NCBI GenBank assembly: GCA_017476005.1
Contig: JAFVEM010000048.1
Span: 1-64,000, forward strand
Length of the DNA: 64,000 nt
Source: Selenomonadaceae bacterium
GTDB taxonomy: Bacteria; Bacillota; Negativicutes; Selenomonadales; Selenomonadaceae
Direction of reading: 5' to 3'
Shown here one piece after another: positions 3,583 to 51,723 of the stretch. Under the pieces are notes generated by a model that saw only the letters and a list, made by a program, of their open reading frames with translations, was not told the origin of the DNA and made no database searches. Made by a program: the position numbers and the translations under genes. Numbering within the stretch: position 1 is the stretch's first letter; each line of letters opens with the position of its first letter.

Positions 3583-4854
3583 TTAGGCTATCGCTTGGCT
3601 ACCGATGCTCTTGGCCATTTTCTTGGGATCAAAGGTCAAAATAGGATCCATGTTTTCCGTAATTACTTCCTTGGTCACTCGGCAAGAAGAAACTCCATCT
3701 ACCGAAGGAACTTCGTACATGACGTTGCGCATGATGCGCTCTAGGATAGACCTGAGTCCTCTGGCGCCGGTCTTGCGTTGCATGGCCTCCTTGGCGATAA
3801 GACGCAATGCCCCTTCTTCAAAGGCCAGTCTCACCCCGTCCATTTCGAGGAGCTTTTGATACTGCTTTACCAAAGCGTTTTTAGGCTGTACCAAAATATC
3901 CATCAAGGCGGACTCATCCAAGGCATCAAGGGTCACCACCACCGGCAGACGACCGATAAATTCCGGTATCAGACCGCTCTTCAGCAAATCCTCGGGGCGA
4001 ATCTGACTAAGTATCTCGCCTATGTTTTGTTCTTTGCGCGAGGTTATTTCGGCGCCAAAGCCTAATTGTTTGGCACCCAGCCTAGAGGCAATAATTTTTT
4101 CCAGCCCGTCGAAAGCGCCGCCGCAGATAAACAAGATGTTGGTGGTATCAATCTGAAGCAAGTCTTGGTGTGGGTGTTTCCTGCCGCCCTGAGGGGGAAC
4201 CATAGCCGTGGTACCCTCGATTATTTTTAGTAAGGCCTGTTGCACTCCCTCCCCGGATACATCCCGAGTAATGGAGGGGTTTTCCGTTTTCCGAGCTATC
4301 TTATCGATTTCGTCAATGTAAATAATGCCACGTTCTGCCCGTTCCACGTCGTAATCGGCGGCTTGGATAATCTTCAGGAGAATATTTTCCACGTCTTCCC
4401 CCACATAACCGGCTTCCGTCAAAGAAGTGGCATCGGCAATGGCAAAGGGAACGTCGAGTATCTTGGCTAGAGTTTGCGCCAGCAACGTTTTACCGCAACC
4501 AGTGGGGCCAATCATGAGTATGTTGGATTTTTGTAATTCTACCGCATTGCGTTGCGCCGGCATATTGATTCGTTTGTAGTGGTTATAAACCGCCACCGAC
4601 AGCGTTTTCTTGGCCTCTTCCTGCCCGATTACATACTGGTCAAGGATGGATTTTATTTCTTTGGGCTTGGGTAAATCATTAACACCGAAATCATAATCGT
4701 CGCTGAACTCTTCCTCAATGATGGTATTGCAGAGTTCAATGCACTCGTCGCAGATATATACACCCGGGCCGGCCACCAACTTCTTAACTTGTTCTTGGGG
4801 TTTGCCGCAAAAGGAACATTTCATTTGCCCCTTGTCCTCCCCAAATCTTAACAT
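3583..4854 (-). CDS. clpX: ATP-dependent Clp protease ATP-binding subunit ClpX
   Basis: A 423-residue AAA+ unfoldase that feeds ClpP. The N-terminal zinc-binding domain has Cys 13, 16, 35 and 38. Walker A is GPTGCGKT near residue 118, Walker B lies in [11 protein letters not shown], and the GYVGEDVE and RKHPHQD regions are typical. The start at 4854 gives the usual N-terminus ([16 protein letters not shown]) with AAGGGG 7 bases upstream; a second Met at residue 11 also has a purine-rich site but would be shorter than the family. The gene starts 11 bp after clpP and is followed by a terminator. Confidence 0.97.
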
Positions 4855-17926: not shown

Positions 17927-19477
17927 TTATTTTAGCGTCACCAAATTCTTTCCGGTCATTTCGGCAGGAATTTCCATACCGGCCAAAGTCAGCAAAGTGG
18001 GAGCTACGTCGCAGAGAGCGCCGGATTCGATGCTCTTTGCTCGGTCGGATACGCAAATAACGGGAACCGGATTGGTGGTGTGGGCGGTGAAAGGTTCGTG
18101 GGAGGTGGGGTCAACCATGACATCCGCATTGCCGTGGTCGGCGATAATAACCACTTCGCCGCCAACGGATTTCAGCGCCTCTACGAAACGCCCGACGCAG
18201 GTATCTACCGTTTCTACGGCTTTAATGGCCGCCGGCAACACGCCGGTGTGACCCACCATGTCGCCGTTAGCGTAGTTCAAAATGATGAAATCATATTTCT
18301 CGGACTTAATGGCTTCCACCACTTTGTCCGTTACCTCGATAGCGCTCATTTCCGGTTGCAGATCGTAGGTGGCTACCTTCGGCGAAGGCACCAAGATGCG
18401 ATCCTCGCCCTCATATTCTTTTTCCACGCCGCCGTTGAAGAAGAAGGTGACGTGGGCGTATTTTTCCGTTTCGGCAATGCGCAGTTGCTTGAGGCCGGCC
18501 TTGGAAACCACTTCGCCCAAGGTGTTATTGATAGATTCCGGCGGATAGGCAATGTTTACATTCATGCCCTTTTCGTATTGGGTCATGGTGGTAAAGGAAA
18601 GATTCAGGCCTTCCACCCGAGGGAACCCATCAAATTCTTTATCGGTAAAGGCGTGAGTAAGCTCTCTGGCGCGGTCGGGGCGGAAGTTGAAGAAGATAAC
18701 GCCGTCGCCGGGTTTCATGCCTTTGTAGCCGTCTATGACCACCGGCAACACAAATTCGTCGGTGACACCCTCCGGCTTTTCGGACTTATCATTATAGGAA
18801 GCCTGTATGGCCTCCGCCGAAGTTTTAGCGGTTTTGCCCTCGCCCTTGGCGATAGCGTCATAGGCTTTGACCACGCGCTCCCAACGCTTATCGCGATCCA
18901 TGGCGTAGTAGCGGCCGGAAATAACGGCTACCTTGCCCACGCCAATCTCTTTGATTTTTGCTTCAAGTTCGGCCAAATACTCCGCCGCGCTGGCCGGCGG
19001 CACGTCGCGCCCATCGAGGAAAGCGTGGACATAGACTTCGCTAAGGCCGTTGCGTTTGGCCATTTCCAAAAGTCCGTAAAGATGCTTGCTGTGGCTGTGC
19101 ACGCCTCCGGGGGAAACCAGACCCATGAGATGAAGCGCGCCGCCGTTCTTTTTCGCATCGTTCATGGCCGTGAGTAGCGCTTTATTCTCAAAAAAGTCCC
19201 CGTCTTTTATGGCTTTGGTAATGCGCGTGAGTTCCTGATAGATGATGCGTCCGGCGCCGATGTTGGTATGTCCCACCTCGGAATTGCCCATCTGTCCGTC
19301 AGGCAGTCCCACATACTCGCCGGAAGCCTGAAGCTCAGCATGAGGGTATTTGGCGGTCAAGCCGTCCAAAACGGGAGTTTTGCCCACGGCAATGGCGTTG
19401 TTGGGATCCTTGGGATCGCCGATGCCCCAACCGTCCATAATGATAAGGGCGATAGGAGCCGGTTTTAATTTTGCCAT
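17927..19477 (-). CDS. gpmI: 2,3-bisphosphoglycerate-independent phosphoglycerate mutase
   Basis: A 516-residue member of the alkaline-phosphatase superfamily that interconverts 3- and 2-phosphoglycerate with two metal ions. The phosphorylated Ser lies in GQMGNSEVGHTNIGAGR near residue 62. Other metal-binding parts are DGWGIGD at the start and ADHGNADVM near residue 445. It starts 17 bp after tpiA. It is the last glycolytic gene of the cluster; enolase, often next, is not in this window. Confidence 0.97.
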   Translation of the reverse strand: MAKLKPAPIALIIMDGWGIGDPKDPNNAIAVGKTPVLDGLTAKYPHAELQASGEYVGLPDGQMGNSEVGHTNIGAGRIIYQELTRITKAIKDGDFFENKALLTAMNDAKKNGGALHLMGLVSPGGVHSHSKHLYGLLEMAKRNGLSEVYVHAFLDGRDVPPASAAEYLAELEAKIKEIGVGKVAVISGRYYAMDRDKRWERVVKAYDAIAKGEGKTAKTSAEAIQASYNDKSEKPEGVTDEFVLPVVIDGYKGMKPGDGVIFFNFRPDRARELTHAFTDKEFDGFPRVEGLNLSFTTMTQYEKGMNVNIAYPPESINNTLGEVVSKAGLKQLRIAETEKYAHVTFFFNGGVEKEYEGEDRILVPSPKVATYDLQPEMSAIEVTDKVVEAIKSEKYDFIILNYANGDMVGHTGVLPAAIKAVETVDTCVGRFVEALKSVGGEVVIIADHGNADVMVDPTSHEPFTAHTTNPVPVICVSDRAKSIESGALCDVAPTLLTLAGMEIPAEMTGKNLVTLK

Positions 19478-19493
19478 ATTCTAAATCCTCTTA

Positions 19494-20246
19494 TCAGAAA
19501 TTCACGATAGCGGAGAAGTCTTTGGCTTTGAGGGATGCGCCGCCTACCAAAGCGCCATCAACATTGGGTTGCTGCATAAGGTCTTTGATGGTGGCCGGTT
19601 TCACACTTCCGCCGTATTGAATGCGGATAGCGTCAGCCGCCGCTTGGTCAAACTTCTTGGCCACGGCCTCGCGGATAGCCTTGCAAACCTCCTCGGCTTG
19701 CTCGAAAGTAGCGGTCTTACCGGTGCCGATAGCCCAAATGGGTTCGTAGGCGATGACGAGTTTCGCCACATCAGCGGCGGCAAAGCCTTCCAACGCGGCG
19801 TTAATCTGCTTCACCACATGGTCGATATAGTTCCCGGCCTCGCGCACCTCTAGCGACTCGCCGCAGCAGATAATCGGCGTAATCCCGGCGGCAAAAGCGG
19901 CTTTGGCACGCTTGTTCACGCCTTCATCCGTTTCGCCAAAATAATCCCGGCGCTCGCTATGCCCAAGGACGCAATACTCTACGCCAATCTCGGTCAGCAT
20001 CTCCGTGGAAATTTCGCCGGTATAGGCGCCGCTCTTTTCCCAATGCACGTTCTGCGCACCCACATGAATGTTCGTCCCCTTCACGGCTTCGCATACCGCC
20101 GCCAAAGCCGTCGCCGTGGGGCAAACCACCACATCAACCTCTTTATTATCCTTTACGAGCGGCGCTAGCTCCTGCACCAAAGCCTTACCGGCCGCGATGG
20201 TGTTATTCATCTTCCAGTTACCTGCAATAATGGGTTTTCTAGCCAT
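19494..20246 (-). CDS. tpiA: Triosephosphate isomerase
   Basis: A 250-residue TIM barrel that interconverts dihydroxyacetone phosphate and glyceraldehyde 3-phosphate. It has GNWKMN at the start, catalytic His in VLGHSERR, and catalytic Glu in AYEPIWAIGTG, with the closing GGSVKP and VGGASL phosphate loops. AAGGAG lies 9 bases before the ATG. A 265-bp intergenic block of repeats separates it from pgk, so read-through may be reduced or processed there. Confidence 0.97.
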   Translation of the reverse strand: MARKPIIAGNWKMNNTIAAGKALVQELAPLVKDNKEVDVVVCPTATALAAVCEAVKGTNIHVGAQNVHWEKSGAYTGEISTEMLTEIGVEYCVLGHSERRDYFGETDEGVNKRAKAAFAAGITPIICCGESLEVREAGNYIDHVVKQINAALEGFAAADVAKLVIAYEPIWAIGTGKTATFEQAEEVCKAIREAVAKKFDQAAADAIRIQYGGSVKPATIKDLMQQPNVDGALVGGASLKAKDFSAIVNF

Positions 20247-43548: not shown

Positions 43549-44360
43549 AGCGTCGCCACCAGCTCGTCCTCCCTGCAAATCCCCCTAGGTAAATTTAAGC
43601 CCCGTCGCCTGAGTCGGTCGGCAATCTCGGTCGCCAAGGGCGGCTCCAGCCCCCATTTTGCCAAATCGGTCGCGGCTAAAATTTCCTTAGGCGTCCCTTG
43701 GGCAACTATTTTTCCTTGGTGCATTACGACAACTCGATCTGCCAAAGCCGCCTCTTCCATGAAGTGAGTTATGCAAATTAGCGTGAGGCCTTGCTCTCGC
43801 AAGTCCCTCGCCACCTGCATGACTTCCTCGCGCCCTTGCGGGTCGAGCATAGCCGTGGCCTCGTCCAAGACTAAGCACTTAGGCTCCATAGCCAGCGCCC
43901 CGGCAATGGCCAATCGTTGTTTCTGACCGCCACTGAGAAGGTGTGGGGCAAAATGAAGCTGCTCCGTCAGGCCAACCGCTTGCAAGGCTTTATCCACGCG
44001 AAGGCGAATCTCCGCCGGGGGCAAGCCTAAATTTTCGGGGCCAAAGGCCACCTCATCCTCGACGATGGCCGCTACCAGCTGATTGTCGGGATTCTGAAAC
44101 ACCAGCCCCACTTGTCGCCTAATATCCCACAGATTTTCCGGCCTAGCGGTGTCCAGCCCCATTACTTTACAAGTCCCCTCCGTAGGCAGGAGCAGGGCGT
44201 TTAGATGCCGCGCCAAGGTGGATTTGCCGGAGCCGTTGGCGCCCACAATGGCCACAAACTCCCCTTCGCCGATGTTAAGATTGATGCCGTTTAGCGCCGG
44301 GGTATTTTCCTTGGCGGCAGCATAAACGTAGGTAAGACGGGAAATTTCGATGATGTTCAC
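43539..44360 (-). CDS. ecfA1: Energy-coupling factor ATPase EcfA1
   Basis: A 273-residue ABC ATPase. Walker A is GANGSGKSTLAR, the signature LSGGQKQRLAIAG and Walker B CLVLDEATAMLDP. The GTG start overlaps the stop of the response-regulator gene (4 bp) and lacks its own ribosome site, so it is probably translated by coupling. First of the ecfA1-ecfA2-ecfT-truA run. Confidence 0.94.
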   Translation of the reverse strand: MNIIEISRLTYVYAAAKENTPALNGINLNIGEGEFVAIVGANGSGKSTLARHLNALLLPTEGTCKVMGLDTARPENLWDIRRQVGLVFQNPDNQLVAAIVEDEVAFGPENLGLPPAEIRLRVDKALQAVGLTEQLHFAPHLLSGGQKQRLAIAGALAMEPKCLVLDEATAMLDPQGREEVMQVARDLREQGLTLICITHFMEEAALADRVVVMHQGKIVAQGTPKEILAATDLAKWGLEPPLATEIADRLRRRGLNLPRGICREDELVATLCP

Positions 44361-45142
44361 TGGATATTACGCTCGTGCAGGTCTTGGTATTTCTTTTTTT
44401 CAAAGAAGTCGTCCACCGCCGCCACCAATTTTTCTCGCGGCATGGATTTTAAGAAGTACCCGTCGGGTTTCAGGGCGATGACGCTCTTAACGCTCTCCCT
44501 ATCCCCCTTCCCCGTGAGGAAAATAACCGGTATGGAATCCACCTTGCTTTCGCTGCGAATCATTTCCAGTACCTGTGGGCCGCTGGTCACCGGCATCTCG
44601 TAGTCGAGAAGTATAAGATCCGGAGTGTTGTCGGCAATGTACATCAGGGCTTGCATCCCCGAGGTGACAATGGTGACTCGGTATTTTACCGACAGCCAGT
44701 CCTTCATCATTTTCAGGAAAGTGCCGTCATCATCCACCAAGAGAATGCTTTTGCGTCGCGCTAAGTCGTCGTTGGCCTCGAGTAGCCAATCTAATTGCGC
44801 CGTCAGTTTCTTCATGTCAAAGGGACGCTCAAAGGTAGAGGCAATAAGCGCCGCCGGGATATGCTCTTGCGCCGATTTCAGCTCTGTGGCTGTTCCCACT
44901 AAGACGAGCAGTTTATCCTGCTCCGTGCAAATATCTTTGATATAGACGAGGACACTAGCCACCTCATCCACATAAGGCCCAAGGTAGAACACAAAGAGAT
45001 CCGAAGCCGCCCGATAAGCGGCCAGCTCGGAAATATCAGGCTCGGCCATGATGACCTCATACTTTGCATCCGTTAAATTTTTTACAATGGTATTTATCAT
45101 AAAGGACTTGCCTTTGCTGATTAGCAACACTCGCTTCTTCAT
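44357..45142 (-). CDS. Double-receiver response regulator without output domain
   Basis: A 261-residue protein. Residues 1-120 form a degenerate receiver-like domain lacking the phospho-acceptor Asp. Residues about 131-255 are an intact receiver: acidic cluster 137-139 (LLVDDDG), acceptor Asp180 (LILLDYEMP), Thr210 and Lys232. No DNA-binding or enzymatic output domain follows. It may pass a signal by protein contact, as single-domain regulators do. It is coupled to ecfA1 but functionally unlike it. GGAGG lies before the ATG. Confidence 0.82.
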   Translation of the reverse strand: MKKRVLLISKGKSFMINTIVKNLTDAKYEVIMAEPDISELAAYRAASDLFVFYLGPYVDEVASVLVYIKDICTEQDKLLVLVGTATELKSAQEHIPAALIASTFERPFDMKKLTAQLDWLLEANDDLARRKSILLVDDDGTFLKMMKDWLSVKYRVTIVTSGMQALMYIADNTPDLILLDYEMPVTSGPQVLEMIRSESKVDSIPVIFLTGKGDRESVKSVIALKPDGYFLKSMPREKLVAAVDDFFEKKKYQDLHERNIQ

Positions 45143-45253
45143 GGTCTGTACCTCCAGTGAGTTCTCGATTTTTACCCGCGAAAGACAATCCCCACGCAGA
45201 TTTCTTCTAGGCTACCCTTTCGACGTCTCCCGGAAAATCCCTGCAAAGGTGTT

Positions 45254-45280
45254 TAAGAAAACTGAAGAAAATCTCGATAT
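45254..45280 (+). promoter_or_regulatory. Candidate SigD/FliA-type promoter
   Basis: TAAG, 15-bp spacer, CTCGATAT, compared with the SigD consensus TAAA-N14-16-GCCGATAT (three of four and six of eight matches). It lies 67 bp before the FliD-C-like start, where a flagellar-class gene would need it. Confidence 0.5.
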
Positions 45281-45346
45281 ACGATGCAGAAGGCAGATTG
45301 CCTTCCGGCAGAAGTTTTGCTATTTCCAAGGAAAGGAGGATTTACC

Positions 45347-46165
45347 ATGTCTAACATTGTGTCTATGGCCACCAATTCCAACCTGATAAACTCCATGTTC
45401 TCCACACGAAACACCGGCAAGCAAAATAGCGTGACGAGCCTCTGGAATAACTACTCCGCCACCAATGGCTTCACCTCAGCTTCCGGCATGAGCGCCGCCA
45501 ATTTGTACGGCGTGAAGGAAAGCTACGCAGAGCTTGTTTCCAGCTACAACACGGCCAAGGACAGCTTCTACGCCGATTTGGACAGCGATATGGCCGATCT
45601 CAAGGACGCGGCTGCCGCCATTAAGAACACGAATTTTAACGTGGGCGAAAATGCGGTGACCACCACCACTTCGGTAAACGACGAAGGCGAAACCGTCACC
45701 ACCAAGAAGTACAACGAAAATCTCCAAAACGCCTTGGATGCCGTGAACAAGCTGGTGGATTCCTACAACAGCACCAACACGCTGCTCAGCGACAGCGCCG
45801 AGCTCTCCCCACGCCTCAAAAATGCCGCCAAGATGTTCTCCGACACCACGGCCAGAGCCGATCTCTATGAGAGCATTGGCATTTCGGTAGGTTCCGGCGG
45901 CAAGCTTACGGTGGATGAGGACAAATTGGTGAGCGCCATCACCGACGATCCGAATCGGGTGACGCGCATCCTAGGCGAAGGCGGACTGGCTGACAAAGCG
46001 GAAAGTCACGTTTCCCGGCTGGAGAGCCAGCAGGGTCAGCTCTTCCCCACTCTTTCCAGCATGTACGGCAGTCAGGTAAAAGCCGCCGAGGCTTACACCG
46101 GTAGCGCCGCCGCCAGTATGCTGGGCTATGCCAACGTAGGGAACCTCATGAATATGTTCTTCTGA
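45347..46165 (+). CDS. FliD C-terminal-domain-like protein
   Basis: A 272-residue protein without a signal peptide, rich in Ser, Asn and Ala. Residues about 95-245 resemble the C-terminal domain of the flagellar cap FliD: ALDAVNKLVDSYNSTNTLL, then LYESIGISVGSGGKLTVDEDKLVSAI. True FliD is much longer (about 450 residues or more), so the N-terminal part is missing here. AGGAGG lies 8 bases before the ATG. No other flagellar structural gene is nearby, but a SigD-like promoter precedes it. It may be a minor filament or cap-related protein, or an adhesin exported by the flagellar system. Confidence 0.7.
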   Translation: MSNIVSMATNSNLINSMFSTRNTGKQNSVTSLWNNYSATNGFTSASGMSAANLYGVKESYAELVSSYNTAKDSFYADLDSDMADLKDAAAAIKNTNFNVGENAVTTTTSVNDEGETVTTKKYNENLQNALDAVNKLVDSYNSTNTLLSDSAELSPRLKNAAKMFSDTTARADLYESIGISVGSGGKLTVDEDKLVSAITDDPNRVTRILGEGGLADKAESHVSRLESQQGQLFPTLSSMYGSQVKAAEAYTGSAAASMLGYANVGNLMNMFF

Positions 46166-46193: not shown

Positions 46194-46221
46194 CCCCCCT
46201 CTTAGAGGGGGGCTTTTTTTT
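46194..46221 (+). terminator. Terminator after the FliD-C-like gene
   Basis: An 8-bp stem CCCCCCTC/GAGGGGGG with a TTA loop and a long T-run. The flanking CCCTGCCGCTA also precedes the rqcH terminator. Confidence 0.88.
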
Positions 46222-46332
46222 TCGCTACAAAACTAAAAATTTTTTATCAAGCTGTGACGTTTTCTCAATTCCGACGTATAACAATTGTGTACTAGTAAGA
46301 TAAAATTTTGACGAAAGGAGTCAATCTCTATC

Positions 46333-49300
46333 ATGAAAGGAACACGAAAGAAAACTAAGCTGCTGGCGCAACTGGTTTCTTTGACCCTTTTGTGCGGCGG
46401 CGTTTGGACAATGGATGCAAATCTTACGGATGCGGCCACTATCGGCGATACCACCGACGGGGTGAAGGTAACACCCCAAAGCGGCAATATTTATAAGGCG
46501 TGGCCGATACAGGACAACATTCTCAATATTACTGCCATTCCTACCGCTTGGCGGAATTTGTCCGGCGTGTTGATTTACGGAGGCTATACTACTTCCCGTA
46601 GCGTCGGTATCACCGGCAATACCGTAAATTTAAGCGGCGGCCTTTGGCGCGATTTCAAATGGGATACTATTATTTACGGCGGCGCTACCATGGGGGCAGG
46701 CTCGTCGGGATCTTCTGCTACAGTCTCCGACAATACCGTGAACATGACGGGCGGCTCCGTCAAGTACCTCGTCGGCGGTTACTCCGTCACTTCCAATCAT
46801 GCCGTGAAGAACAACCATGTAAATATTTCCGCCGGTACCGTCAACGATGTCTATGGCGGCTGGTTCAATATGCAAACATTTAGTGGCAAAAGCGTTGTCG
46901 GCAACACGGTAATCATAACGGGTGGCAACGTCAACGGCCATGTTTACGGCGGCTATCAATCTGGGACAAACGGTACCGGCGTAAATGCCGTTCGTGGGAA
47001 CACGGTCACAATCAATGGCAACATCACAAAAGGCTCGCGTATAGCCGGCGGTTGGGCGGAAGCCGGCTTGGCCGTTATCGAAAACATCGTGAACATTGTC
47101 AAAGGCACGCTAATCGACCCTAGTATTTTCGGCGGCTACCGGGGTTCCGACGGCCAGTCGAACTATGCCCCCAGCGAAAATCAGGTCAACATCAGCGGCG
47201 GCACCATTAAAGGCGGCGGTATTTACGGCGGTTTCAGCAATAATAATGGCTACCTTGAGAACAATGCCGTCAACATCACCGGCGGTATCTTTGAAGCCTA
47301 CGACGGCACCTACGGCCGTATTTACGGCGGCTACAATAACAAAAATGGCGGCACCGTGCAAAACAATACGGTCAGTATCACGAACGCAAAAGGCACCGGT
47401 TTTAGTTTGGGCAGTAGCACGGTTTACGGCGGCTACGGCAATTCGGGCAGCGTAACAGGAAATTCCGTAACGGTGACGGGCAGCACCTTGAACGTGAACG
47501 TCAGCAGCAACTATGCGACTTTGTATGGCGGCTACGGTCAGACTGGTGAAGTGACGAAAAACGCTGTAACCATAACGAACAGCAGGATGCGAGGTAGCGT
47601 TACCGGCGGCCGTAGTGACAGTTCCGGCTCGGCGACGGGCAACAGCGTAACCATATCGAACAGCACTATATATGGCAGTGGTACTGAGTCCACCGATCAC
47701 ACCATATATGGCGGTTATTCCGGTGGCGCGGCTACGGGGAACACTGTAACCATAACCGGCAGTCTGGTGGATCCATCGGTAAGGGGCGGCTATTCCGGTA
47801 ACGGTTCGGCTACGGGGAACACCGTCAACATAACCAATAGCACTCTTCAAGGATATATATACGGCGGCTATTCCGATAACGGTTCGGCTACGGGGAATAC
47901 CGTCAACATAACAAGTAGCACTCTTTACTGTCCTGTATATGGCGGTTATGCCCAATACGGAACAGAAACAGGCAACACGGTTAATCTCAACAATGCCGTC
48001 ATAACGAGTCTCTATGGCGGCAACAAAACTGCCACCGGGAATATCCTTAATCTGACCGGGATAAATAAAGTTAACTCAACAAATGGATTTAGCGCAGTGG
48101 TGGAAAACTTTGCCACCATCAATTTCTTAGACACCGTGACTTGGCAAACAGAGAGCCCAGTGCTGACGGCAAATACATTTACCAATATCGGCGGCATCGA
48201 TATATCGAACGCATCCCATCTATACGAAGAGGAAAATACCGGCGGCATGACCCTAATCACCTCCGGCAACAGCAATTTGGCCGGCATCACCGTGACCTAC
48301 AAGGGCGGCTCGTGGAAAACCGTGGCCGGTGACAGTAAAGACATGATAAATACAAATGCCACCAACGAGGCAAAATCCGGCCTAACCATTGGCTATACCC
48401 ACAAAAATACCCTTAGCCTTACCAGCTCTGGCCAAAATCTCAAAGTCACCAACAGCACCACTTACAACAGCGCGAAATTCGACCTAGCCAAAATTGACCG
48501 CTACGGCGACGACTGGATAGAGGGCGGCTATACTTTCTCGTCGGGGGCTAATATCAAAGCCGGCGGTCTCGACGTGAATTTTACCGACCTCACCACCCCC
48601 ATAACCAACGCCGAACCGGGTGAAACCTTTACTTTGCTTTCCCTCGATGGCAATTCCGGCTCCATTGGTACAGCCTCCCAATTAACCAAAACCATCTCGG
48701 TGAACGGGGAAGAGTTCCCGGTGTATGGCAGTATGTATTTTGATGCGGATCGTCAAGATACCCTCAGCGTCACCGCCAAAAAAGTAGATTACACGGTGGG
48801 GGCATCCTCGCAGGTGGAGAAAGTTTTCTTTAATACCGACAAGATTACCTATAATCCCGGTGGAACCTATTTTGATGCCAAGGATAATTTTACTTTCGCC
48901 GGCTCCCTTCCCTTTGACGCTACGAATTTAACTTTTGATACCTACAACGCCAACCCCTACGGCACCTCCATGACCCTCCTAAAAGCCAACAGCCTGAACG
49001 TGGGAACCGTTACCAATTCCGACGGCGTAACTATCCCGGTGAGCCTCACCGACGGCAACAATATAACTTTTGGCGGCACCGCCAGCGGCACTATCACGGC
49101 GGCAAATAATGCTGTAACTTATAAGGTGGGGGATGTGGCCGCGAGTAGTATTAAATTAGGCAGTATGGCTTGGGGTAGCGCGGCCAGTTCCCTGCCGACG
49201 GGCTGGACGGTGACAGCGGGCACCGCCGTTGATGCATCCGAATTTGCCTTCACCGGGGCGACTGCCGCCATCACTCCTAACACCACCGCCGCTATTTTAA

Positions 49301-51723
49301 CGGGCAGCGGCCTCGGTAACAGCACCGTTAGCGGCGGCGCAAATCGTCCCACCGCCATTAACTACACCGACAGTGTAAGCAATATAACCTACGACGCAAC
49401 GGCTCTGGGTACCGTGGCGGCCGCCGACAATGCCCTGAACTACACCGTAAACAGCGTAGGGGTAAATTCGCTTACTTTGGGCGAAATGGCTTGGGGCAGT
49501 ACCGCCGACGCGCCCACGGGCTGGCAGGCATCGGCGGCTACTACCATTGACGGGACAAATTTTGTCTTTGCGGGCATGGCGGACACGGCGGTAAAGGCCG
49601 GGGACAGCGCTCGCCTGCTGAATCTTTCCGGCCTAACCACGGCTAATGCCGTTACCGAAGGTACGGAGAAGGAATTGTCGGTGATTTACACCGCCGACAA
49701 CGGGGTGGTCTTTGGGGCCACCGCCACCGGGGAAATTGCCGCCACCACGGATGCCCTGAATTACACCGTGGAAAAAGTGAATGTACCCAACGCCAGTTTG
49801 CTCAATTGGGACAAGAAAACCAGCGCGGCTGTCCCCGATGGGTGGGAACCTGCCGCCGCCACGGAAGTTATAAACGTCAACACCGATATGAATGGCATAC
49901 TTCCCAACGAAACAACGACCATTCTTACCTCCAACGATACCTTTGACCTGTCTTCCGACACGGTGACGTTCACCGGCGGCCATGTTAAGGATGAAACCAA
50001 TGATGAGCCGGATCCCTTTATCGAGTACGACGAGTTTGCCAATGTTTTGATAGACGGCCAAACCTCAGGTGGGGTAGAGGTAAACAATACCGCTAAAACC
50101 GTGATTTATACCGCCGGGGATAAAGAAGTAGCGAACATTTATGTGATAGCTCCCACCTTCACCAACGGGGCGACTTTGTTTGACGGCAGCAACACTGGTT
50201 ATAAATACGAGGATGCCACTCTCAATACGGATTTCTTTGATGAAATTGTGGTAGCGGACGACAACCCCCTGCAGGCCGAAAGCATGACTCTCCTCAAGGG
50301 CAACGACAGCCTCAAAAATAACGGCGACTTTTGGGAAGCGGTGGAAGCCACTGAGGAGCAAACGGGAGATTATGAGGATAAGGAAGCGGCTCCCGGTGTC
50401 ACCATCAGCGGCCAGCTGGCCGGCAAGCTCGCCCAAAGCGCCGGTGGCACCGATCTCGTCTTAAACGTCACCAGCGATCAAGTGAGCAGCCTGACCTTTA
50501 AAGACGTGGAGTGGCAAAACAGCGGCGCCCTTATCGACAAAGCAACCTTGCCCTCGGTAGTCAGCTTTGAGGGAGCTACCGTAGATACCAGTAATATCAA
50601 CTTCACCAACCTCCATGACCAAGGAGATGGAGAGGCCATGACCTTGGCGGCTAATTTAGGCGAGGACACCACTCTTGGCACCATCAACGGCGAAACTTCC
50701 ACCAGCGTAGAAGGGGAATACAAGGTAGGTTCCGGCCTCAAGGGTAAAGGGCGCACCGAGTTTACGGGGGGCAACCTCACCTACACCACGCTAACGGGTA
50801 CGGGAGCCAGCGAAGAGTCCCACAATACCCTGATGGGAGCGGCGGCCTCGATGACGGCTCTGTCCGGCGGCAACGATTTCATTTTGGAAGCCGGGGTGGG
50901 GCTGGCTGATAAGGCCAATACCGGCTCCGACGGGCTGGCGACTTTTGCCAAAGTCGGCGGCGGCAGTATGAGTCAAGAGACGGGCAGTCATGTGGATGTC
51001 AGTATGTGGAACTCGGTTATTGCCGTAGGCCGCAACATTGAGACGGAGAAAGACTCTAGGGAGTACGGCGTTTTCTTCGAGTACGGCCAAGGAAATTACA
51101 CCACTCACAACGGCAACCAACGGGGCGACGGCAGTATGTACTACACCGGCGGCGGCGTCCTCGGCAAATGGCAGAATAACAAGGGCTTTTATGTAGATGG
51201 CAGTCTGCGACTGGGGACTATACACGACGATGCCCATAGCGTCATGTACGATATTTACGGCAACCCTTCCAGCTACAAAACCGATTCCGGCTACTGGGGA
51301 TTCCATCTGGGCGTAGGTCGGGAAATTAAGGTAAATGACAAAGACAGCGTGGATTTCTACGGGCGGTATTTCTTTAACCGGGTAGATGGGTCGAGTTTCG
51401 ACGCGGCAAACAACCACTATGATTTGGATGCCGTGACGAGTCAAATCCTGCGCCTCGGCACGCGCTACACCTTGAAGGGCAACAAGTGGCATTTCTACAG
51501 CGGCCTAGCCTATCAGCACGAATTTGACGGTAAAGGTACGGGCAGAGTTGACGGCAACGCCATCAGAGGAGCCGATACCAGCGGCGGCAGTATCTTCGGC
51601 GAAATCGGCGCGAAAATGGTACCCACGGCCACTAATCCTTGGAGCATCGACTTTTACCTGAACGCCTTCGGCGGCAAGAAAAACGGCGTCACCGGCGGCG
51701 TGGCCATAGCCTTTATGTTTTGA
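46333..51723 (+). CDS. Large autotransporter with beta-helix repeats
   Basis: A 1796-residue type Va autotransporter. A signal peptide (about 1-37) is followed by a beta-helix passenger of ~26-residue units, roughly residues 70-570. Typical units read GGYSGNGSATGNTVNITNST, with GGY and N-x-V at fixed spacing. A second repeat region (about 900-1400) has longer units with A(D/N)NALNYTV and a MAWGS or similar segment. The C-terminal ~270 residues are an outer-membrane barrel (SREYGVFFEYGQGNY onward) ending in Phe. AAAGGAG precedes the ATG. Adjacent DNA repeats near 47800-47950 are nearly identical, so copy number may vary. The target of the passenger is unknown. Confidence 0.88.
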   Translation: MKGTRKKTKLLAQLVSLTLLCGGVWTMDANLTDAATIGDTTDGVKVTPQSGNIYKAWPIQDNILNITAIPTAWRNLSGVLIYGGYTTSRSVGITGNTVNLSGGLWRDFKWDTIIYGGATMGAGSSGSSATVSDNTVNMTGGSVKYLVGGYSVTSNHAVKNNHVNISAGTVNDVYGGWFNMQTFSGKSVVGNTVIITGGNVNGHVYGGYQSGTNGTGVNAVRGNTVTINGNITKGSRIAGGWAEAGLAVIENIVNIVKGTLIDPSIFGGYRGSDGQSNYAPSENQVNISGGTIKGGGIYGGFSNNNGYLENNAVNITGGIFEAYDGTYGRIYGGYNNKNGGTVQNNTVSITNAKGTGFSLGSSTVYGGYGNSGSVTGNSVTVTGSTLNVNVSSNYATLYGGYGQTGEVTKNAVTITNSRMRGSVTGGRSDSSGSATGNSVTISNSTIYGSGTESTDHTIYGGYSGGAATGNTVTITGSLVDPSVRGGYSGNGSATGNTVNITNSTLQGYIYGGYSDNGSATGNTVNITSSTLYCPVYGGYAQYGTETGNTVNLNNAVITSLYGGNKTATGNILNLTGINKVNSTNGFSAVVENFATINFLDTVTWQTESPVLTANTFTNIGGIDISNASHLYEEENTGGMTLITSGNSNLAGITVTYKGGSWKTVAGDSKDMINTNATNEAKSGLTIGYTHKNTLSLTSSGQNLKVTNSTTYNSAKFDLAKIDRYGDDWIEGGYTFSSGANIKAGGLDVNFTDLTTPITNAEPGETFTLLSLDGNSGSIGTASQLTKTISVNGEEFPVYGSMYFDADRQDTLSVTAKKVDYTVGASSQVEKVFFNTDKITYNPGGTYFDAKDNFTFAGSLPFDATNLTFDTYNANPYGTSMTLLKANSLNVGTVTNSDGVTIPVSLTDGNNITFGGTASGTITAANNAVTYKVGDVAASSIKLGSMAWGSAASSLPTGWTVTAGTAVDASEFAFTGATAAITPNTTAAILTGSGLGNSTVSGGANRPTAINYTDSVSNITYDATALGTVAAADNALNYTVNSVGVNSLTLGEMAWGSTADAPTGWQASAATTIDGTNFVFAGMADTAVKAGDSARLLNLSGLTTANAVTEGTEKELSVIYTADNGVVFGATATGEIAATTDALNYTVEKVNVPNASLLNWDKKTSAAVPDGWEPAAATEVINVNTDMNGILPNETTTILTSNDTFDLSSDTVTFTGGHVKDETNDEPDPFIEYDEFANVLIDGQTSGGVEVNNTAKTVIYTAGDKEVANIYVIAPTFTNGATLFDGSNTGYKYEDATLNTDFFDEIVVADDNPLQAESMTLLKGNDSLKNNGDFWEAVEATEEQTGDYEDKEAAPGVTISGQLAGKLAQSAGGTDLVLNVTSDQVSSLTFKDVEWQNSGALIDKATLPSVVSFEGATVDTSNINFTNLHDQGDGEAMTLAANLGEDTTLGTINGETSTSVEGEYKVGSGLKGKGRTEFTGGNLTYTTLTGTGASEESHNTLMGAAASMTALSGGNDFILEAGVGLADKANTGSDGLATFAKVGGGSMSQETGSHVDVSMWNSVIAVGRNIETEKDSREYGVFFEYGQGNYTTHNGNQRGDGSMYYTGGGVLGKWQNNKGFYVDGSLRLGTIHDDAHSVMYDIYGNPSSYKTDSGYWGFHLGVGREIKVNDKDSVDFYGRYFFNRVDGSSFDAANNHYDLDAVTSQILRLGTRYTLKGNKWHFYSGLAYQHEFDGKGTGRVDGNAIRGADTSGGSIFGEIGAKMVPTATNPWSIDFYLNAFGGKKNGVTGGVAIAFMF

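Follow-up and report, generated by a model that had tools for sequence, protein, structure and literature searches.

A short, predicted headless relative of the flagellar cap protein FliD in flagellated Selenomonadaceae

Two described systems come closest to the protein considered here. In the structural account of FliD (HAP2) given in PMC7316729, the two termini together make up D0 as a coiled coil, D1 is a four-helix bundle, and D2 and D3 form the head. FlaC of the Campylobacterales is described in PMC4863622 as a relative of flagellin that lacks most of D2 and D3, is secreted and is not needed for motility. The open-access literature searched gave no description of a short FliD-like family, and the excerpted text of a study of Eubacterium and Roseburia motility genes (PMC3720852) names no such protein. 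The full FliD cap protein was already known; a family of predicted headless FliD relatives would be new.

The window is the stretch of DNA analysed, which covers the opening 64 kb of contig C68 (163.7 kb) in a 2.71-Mb Selenomonadaceae genome of 76 contigs. It encodes a protein of 272 residues, and the features of this gene are as follows.

45254..45257, + strand: -35-like TAAG of the proposed SigD promoter; read directly; TAAG-N15-YTCGATAT also stands before the gene run that contains fliD
45273..45280, + strand: -10-like CTCGATAT of the proposed SigD promoter; read directly; CGATA(A/T) upstream in 11/17 genus representatives
45332..45339, + strand: ribosome-binding site AAAGGAGG; read directly
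45347..46165, stop included, + strand: coding sequence of the 272-aa predicted headless FliD-like protein; open reading frame, Pfam FliD_C 34.2 bits, orthologues with conserved starts and ends
45347..45520, + strand: N-terminal tail, residues 1-58; pLDDT <50; the alignment shows conservation over the first ~20 residues, then a linker that varies in length
45491..45628, + strand: long helix, residues 49-94, matching the N-terminal helix of FliD D1; model (49-58 at low confidence) and VIA-align
45656..45712, + strand: β-hairpin, residues 104-122, predicted to replace the FliD D2-D3 head; model and best PDB profile match
45716..46039, + strand: C-terminal half of FliD D1, residues 124-231 (YN helix, IGI/GKLTVDEDKL module); FliD_C, hhalign and model
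46070..46162, + strand: C-terminal tail, residues 242-272, ending NVGNLMNMFF; model pLDDT <50, conserved across orthologues
46194..46222, + strand: terminator-like C-rich/G-rich hairpin followed by T9; by eye

The gene, noted in the preliminary description as that of a short FliD-C-like protein, is real: the ribosome-binding site serves the ATG at 45347, giving the 272-residue reading frame, and the product matches Pfam FliD_C above cut-off (34.2 against 25.4 bits). The ATG of a longer version in the same frame, at 45284, begins just 4 nt beyond the -10 of the proposed promoter, from which it is for that reason an unlikely start. FliD_N gave no Pfam match in the protein at E up to 1, and in the genome it is found only in the full FliD on contig C2. 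All NCBIfam matches of the protein lie far under their cut-offs. A phmmer search of the PDB sequences with the single protein gave nothing useful, nor did a profile search of viral contigs. Comparison with FliD by hhalign (98.2%, E 4.9e-14, 93 columns) covers columns 121-215, and the best PDB profile match places the hairpin stretch immediately ahead of the FliD YN helix.

The fold was predicted by AlphaFold from nine sequences, the window protein and eight short relatives. Confidence is high in the middle of the chain (pLDDT >=90 in 108/272 residues, the confident part spanning ~60-235) and below 50 in the tails (1-58 and 242-272). The best structural match by VIA-align is FliD 5h5v (Z 15.3, rmsd 2.6, 140 residues), residues 72-234 of the model aligning to 44-409 of the 5h5v chain. 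The FliD positions make a jump here: the two halves of D1 are both covered, and the head has no counterpart in the model. Ranks 1-9 are all FliD or cap-complex entries and the first unrelated row has Z 10.2, where for helical bundles a Z under ~13 can reflect a common arrangement; FliD rows with Z >13 number two for the window protein and one for the Lachnospiraceae relative L024. The eight top Foldseek rows are likewise FliD or cap-complex entries, with a lowest E of 5.7e-3, so that no match of the window-protein model reached E 0.001. The L024 model has the same order of elements, a headless D1 topology with a single β-hairpin, and FliD or cap-complex entries at VIA-align ranks 1-10 (best Z 14.9, first unrelated 10.7). 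It was built from the same nine sequences in another order, and the two models are therefore not independent.

The predicted domain plan is thus a four-helix D1 stem with a small β module, from which the D2-D3 cap-plate head and a recognisable D0 are absent; in the model one β-hairpin stands between the D1 helices where the head would be. On this prediction the 272-aa protein is a headless FliD relative with a whole D1. The sequence supports the C-terminal half of the stem, and the sequence profiles give no support to the N-terminal D1 helix (hhalign covers 121-215 and FliD_N is without a match). The statement that only the C-terminal FliD domain is kept accordingly holds for the sequence profiles and fails for the predicted fold, since structural comparison gives the whole of D1.

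Outside the stem, the first ~20 residues are conserved and are followed by a linker that is strongly variable in length and Ser/Thr-rich in some orthologues. The lack of a Sec signal, also noted earlier, was borne out: a Sec-like hydrophobic stretch is absent, and within the first 50 residues the Kyte-Doolittle mean over 15 residues rises no higher than 0.79. Cysteine is absent from 21/21 short proteins. A protein that stays in the cytoplasm could equally well have neither cysteine nor a Sec signal. Conservation of the short protein is below that of FliD in 10/10 comparisons with the window genome and in 53/55 pairs, with a mean identity over the same genomes of 41.3% against 51.8% for FliD.

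The likeness to FliD comprises the predicted D1 fold with its small β module, the GKLxxDExKL stretch, the occurrence with flagella and a SigD-like element. The two differ in that the short protein lacks FliD_N and the D2-D3 head, is 272 rather than 554 aa long and has no recognisable D0, while its gene is not near fliD and a complete FliD is also present. The parallel with FlaC, as the latter is described in PMC4863622, is that both would be relatives of axial proteins that have lost most of the central D2-D3, the short protein being for FliD what FlaC is for flagellin. FlaC differs in being a flagellin relative, to which no relationship of the short protein was found, and its secretion was shown by experiment whereas that of the short protein we infer. 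Short FliD_C-like proteins of Lachnospiraceae and other Clostridia (L024-L030, L034) are similar in size and all come from genomes with FlhA, but have 22-30% identity to the window protein.

Flagellar genes are present elsewhere in the genome. The full FliD (554 aa) is encoded on contig C2, FlhA on C15 and FliA/SigD at C15:54590-55228 (255 bits, cut-off 189.6), so that the search for full fliD and sigD proposed in the preliminary description found both, and a genome without flagellar genes, which would have spoken against its reading, is not what was seen. The gene run on C2 reads flgM, flgN-like, flgK, flgL, fliW, csrA, flaG, fliD, fliS, fliT by eye, with fliD checked against Pfam. The short gene does indeed lie away from these. 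The window has 55 non-overlapping ORFs of at least 100 aa, of which 54 were scanned against Pfam (E 1, 1e-3 and 1e-6 in turn); the one left out, 45048-45383, overlaps the 272-aa ORF and looks spurious. No other flagellar Pfam family was found in these 54/55 ORFs, 8/54 of which matched nothing. With fliD on contig C2, the gene is not encoded with fliS and fliT in a flagellar cluster.

The neighbours are instead an ECF-type transporter (CbiQ with two ABC ATPases), a pseudouridine synthase, Dak1/Dak2 proteins and thrS, together with a response regulator encoded on the opposite strand and an ORF of 1796 aa, autotransporter-like by eye. The divergent response regulator (44360-45142, 261 aa) has a receiver domain only in its C-terminal half (133-243) and no convincing Pfam match in the N-terminal half. 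The 1796-aa ORF (46333-51723) has many 'GNTV..IYGGY' repeats and by eye an outer-membrane-barrel-like end, and was without a Pfam match at E 0.001. A fixed gene neighbourhood was rejected from 20 regions, those of 19 relatives plus the window: no neighbour family occurs in more than 5/20, and no shared flagellar neighbours were noticed. The family seen in 5/20 is a pyruvate-kinase-like gene, assigned by eye (L048, L049, L050, L054, L057). By eye, tpiA-gpmI(-eno)-like genes are also near short FliD-like genes in four genomes (L098, L121, L125, L129); the tpiA and gpmI genes of the window are at 17930-20246, away from the 272-aa gene. A small protein of unknown kind (MSISSISVNPYG...) is encoded directly beside the short gene in two genera, at L043 7120-7572 (G018) and L050 7915-8454 (G025), 31 and 79 nt from it, and in L053 a third member is found at a distance of 6 kb.

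A search with the single sequence matched 34/60 genomes, the window genome and some weak FliD matches included. With a profile, 177 of 189 family genomes matched at E <=0.001, true FliD among these matches. Clear orthologues (E below 1e-28) are present in 157/189, a threshold set after a gap in the match list was seen, no genome having its best match between 4.1e-29 and 8.6e-20. The weakest match counted (G030, 4.1e-29) is in a 598-aa frame and may not be a true short orthologue. FlhA was found in 173/189 genomes. The other 16 divide into 10 that match Flagellin_N and six, from three genera, that do not. The Flagellin_N family also matches FlgL. None of these six carries the short protein, against 157/183 flagellated genomes (Fisher p 1.6e-5, with table entries counted by hand, genomes treated as independent and relatedness uncorrected). 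When genomes are restricted to >=90% completeness and <=5% contamination, the figures are 76/93 and 0/6 (p 9e-5, relatedness uncorrected), and by genus 23/27 flagellated genera have the protein against 0/3, genera not being independent either. Presence without flagella was considered for nine genomes that have the protein and seemingly lack FlhA, and was rejected: all nine match Flagellin_N, so FlhA is probably missing from these assemblies. Across the 189 family genomes every clear orthologue thus comes from a genome that gave FlhA or a match to flagellin, which agrees with the flagellar link put forward in the preliminary description.

The association is not complete in the other direction, as 26/183 flagellated genomes have no clear orthologue, including all sampled members of genera g6, g10, g16 and g25; the short protein is therefore dispensable for having flagella. 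One genome of g25 (G024) has short FliD_C-like ORFs of a divergent kind. Beyond the family, 8/11 related loci are short relatives (five Lachnospiraceae, two Eubacterium, one Clostridia); size and neighbours mark the remaining three (L031-L033) as ordinary FliD. FlhA is present in all 11 genomes. Two further families of the class also have short relatives (G037, G052). In a sample of the phylum 244/398 genomes have some match, a count that does not take in flagella status, and among the matches listed most are in frames of ~430 aa or more and are probably ordinary FliD.

Several further FliD_C-like frames were seen. The window genome has a second short protein of 280 aa (L058 / G000:C45 5556-6395, also L002 970-1809; 31.6 bits), which has no cysteine and ends MDMYY, with similar second copies in G006, G034, G027 and G018. 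Two frames of 424 and 393 aa (G462:C2 157384-158559 and G462:C9 58892-60022) have two matches each and are perhaps tandem headless D1 modules. In another family of the class a 202-aa FliD_C-like ORF (L120 2824-3432, G049:C3) follows fliD and fliS-/fliT-like genes, perhaps the ancestral position.

Upstream of the gene, TAAG-N15-CTCGATAT at 45254-45280 ends 66 nt before the ATG at 45347. The sigma-28 consensus quoted in the excerpt of PMC3720852 is TAAA, N15 to N17, CCGATAT or MCGATAa, from which, in the form quoted there, the element departs by one base in each part. A nearly identical element, TAAG-N15-TTCGATAT, precedes the gene run holding fliD in the same genome. A single match of such a promoter exceeds chance by little: TAA-N18-CGATAW is found at 89 places in the genome and its backward control at 61, and the site at 45254-45280 has p = 0.024 against shuffles of its own upstream region. 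In the orthologue set, from which L071 was left out, CGATA(A/T) stands 12-130 nt upstream in 11/17 genus representatives where shuffles give an expectation of 1.4; one of the 11, in G018, is doubtful, being 24 nt before the start with a same-strand gene 31 nt away. When the -35 and the spacing are included, the full two-hexamer score is <0.05 in 3/17 representatives (combined Fisher p 0.005-0.007). No CGATA(A/T) was found in the stretch examined for genera g7, g22, g27 and g28, or upstream in 6/8 Lachnospiraceae/Clostridia loci examined, while GCCGATAT is upstream in 2/8 of these short relatives; several orthologues without a SigD-like -10 look SigA-driven by eye. The SigD-like promoter at a suitable distance that had been described is therefore present as an element but is weaker than claimed, the full motif being significant in 3/17. 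There is moderate support for the gene being a late one (SigD-class), and SigD would be the factor that transcribes it. A further TAAG-N15-TCCGATAT was seen just before a small gene of unknown kind (4057-4500) at L095 4506-4532 (G000:C25, - strand), possibly another SigD-regulon orphan.

That the gene belongs to the flagellar programme is well supported by its distribution and fold. The best explanation, which we hold with moderate confidence, is that it encodes a late-flagellar, flagellum-exported accessory protein, related to FliD and distinct from the cap, comparable to what FlaC is for flagellin. The protein would be made together with the filament proteins under SigD-type control, its unstructured N-terminus would hand it to the flagellar type III export gate, and it would then pass down the filament and, at or beyond the tip, act in a role other than that of the cap, standing to FliD as FlaC stands to flagellin. 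Both the export and the place of action are what we infer from the analysis. Since FliD is an export substrate and no other signal was seen, passage through the flagellum is the simplest route to suppose. A role other than that of the true cap, already suggested in the preliminary description, follows from the missing head and the separate intact FliD that the genome encodes.

The main rival is a structural accessory of the filament tip or the hook-filament junction, its D1 inserted among FliD or axial subunits, which would stay on the flagellum and modify capping, plugging or filament length. According to PMC7316729, FliD meets the filament through a leg made of D0-D1 and has D2-D3 as its head, and it is D1 that is predicted to be retained here; the N- and C-termini are conserved, and the class-level 202-aa FliD_C-like relative of G049 lies shortly after fliD. 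The very variable N-terminal linker is a misfit with a D0 coiled coil built from both termini, however, and conservation lower than that of FliD, a gene without linkage to flagellar genes in the window and its absence from 26/183 flagellated genomes also weigh against such a part, which we regard as possible but rather unlikely.

The flagellum-exported protein that we prefer may have a companion. A protein of 207-250 aa is encoded beside the short gene on the same strand in 3/20 regions (G002, G031, G011; two genera within the family), and the partner is also beside it in L024 and L025 (2/8 loci, Lachnospiraceae). The order varies, the partner being first in G002 and G031 and second in G011, L024 and L025. 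Where it comes first (G002, G031), CGATAT precedes the partner gene; in genus g3 the short gene follows the partner gene and CGATAT lies upstream of the partner in both genomes looked at. In the window genome the partner is elsewhere (C7:3865-4539), with TTTA-N15-ATCGATAT upstream. Five of the six members were scanned, L025 lying outside the scan, and gave no Pfam match above cut-off; the nearest families, DUF5610 (14.9 bits, cut-off 26.4) and ATP-gua_PtransN (20.0 bits, cut-off 25.7), were rejected as names. Adjacency in either order in two lineages suggests a shared function of partner and short gene, though neighbourhood alone is weak evidence because the pyruvate-kinase-like gene is also near in 5/20 regions. 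That the two form a flagellum-exported two-protein module, as an old filament-tip accessory or a secreted pair, is a tentative and somewhat doubtful proposal.

The protein might alternatively remain in the cytoplasm as a FliD decoy, titrating a FliT-type chaperone or FliD and so tuning late flagellar expression. Its C-terminal tail is conserved and, in the account given in part of PMC5493677, Salmonella FliT binds the C-terminal helix of FliD and thereby links FliD export to gene expression; by eye, two small fliS-/fliT-like genes follow fliD in the window genome. The profile match to FliD ends at column 215, however, so the conserved tail is not shown to correspond to the FliD C-terminus. Salmonella regulation of this kind moreover acts on FlhDC, which to our knowledge is not to be expected in this organism, and a decoy role appears improbable. 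Also improbable is an indirect link, in which an envelope or surface protein, often SigA-driven, is kept by motile species. Several clades do lack a SigD-like -10, partly with SigA-like promoters instead, and the 20 regions revealed no common flagellar neighbours, but the contrast between 0/6 non-flagellated and 157/183 flagellated genomes, the FliD-type fold and the absence of a Sec-like stretch stand against it. A decaying FliD duplicate without function would lack the head and the FliD_N signature and be less conserved than FliD, as is seen, yet is very improbable given that 23 genera have clear orthologues, free of internal stops in the rows listed, and given the conserved starts, ends and D1 motifs, and similar headless proteins in Lachnospiraceae and other Clostridia.

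Clear orthologues are encoded in 157/183 sampled flagellated members of the family, with short relatives in Lachnospiraceae and other Clostridia, and profile searches would label such a headless protein FliD_C. As a natural stem-only FliD it would offer a test of which part of the cap protein is enough for export and for binding at the filament tip. Should it be exported, these bacteria would be sending out an additional FliD-like protein through the flagellum; and if the protein and its partner do form a secreted pair, this would let motile Bacillota use the flagellum for something besides swimming.
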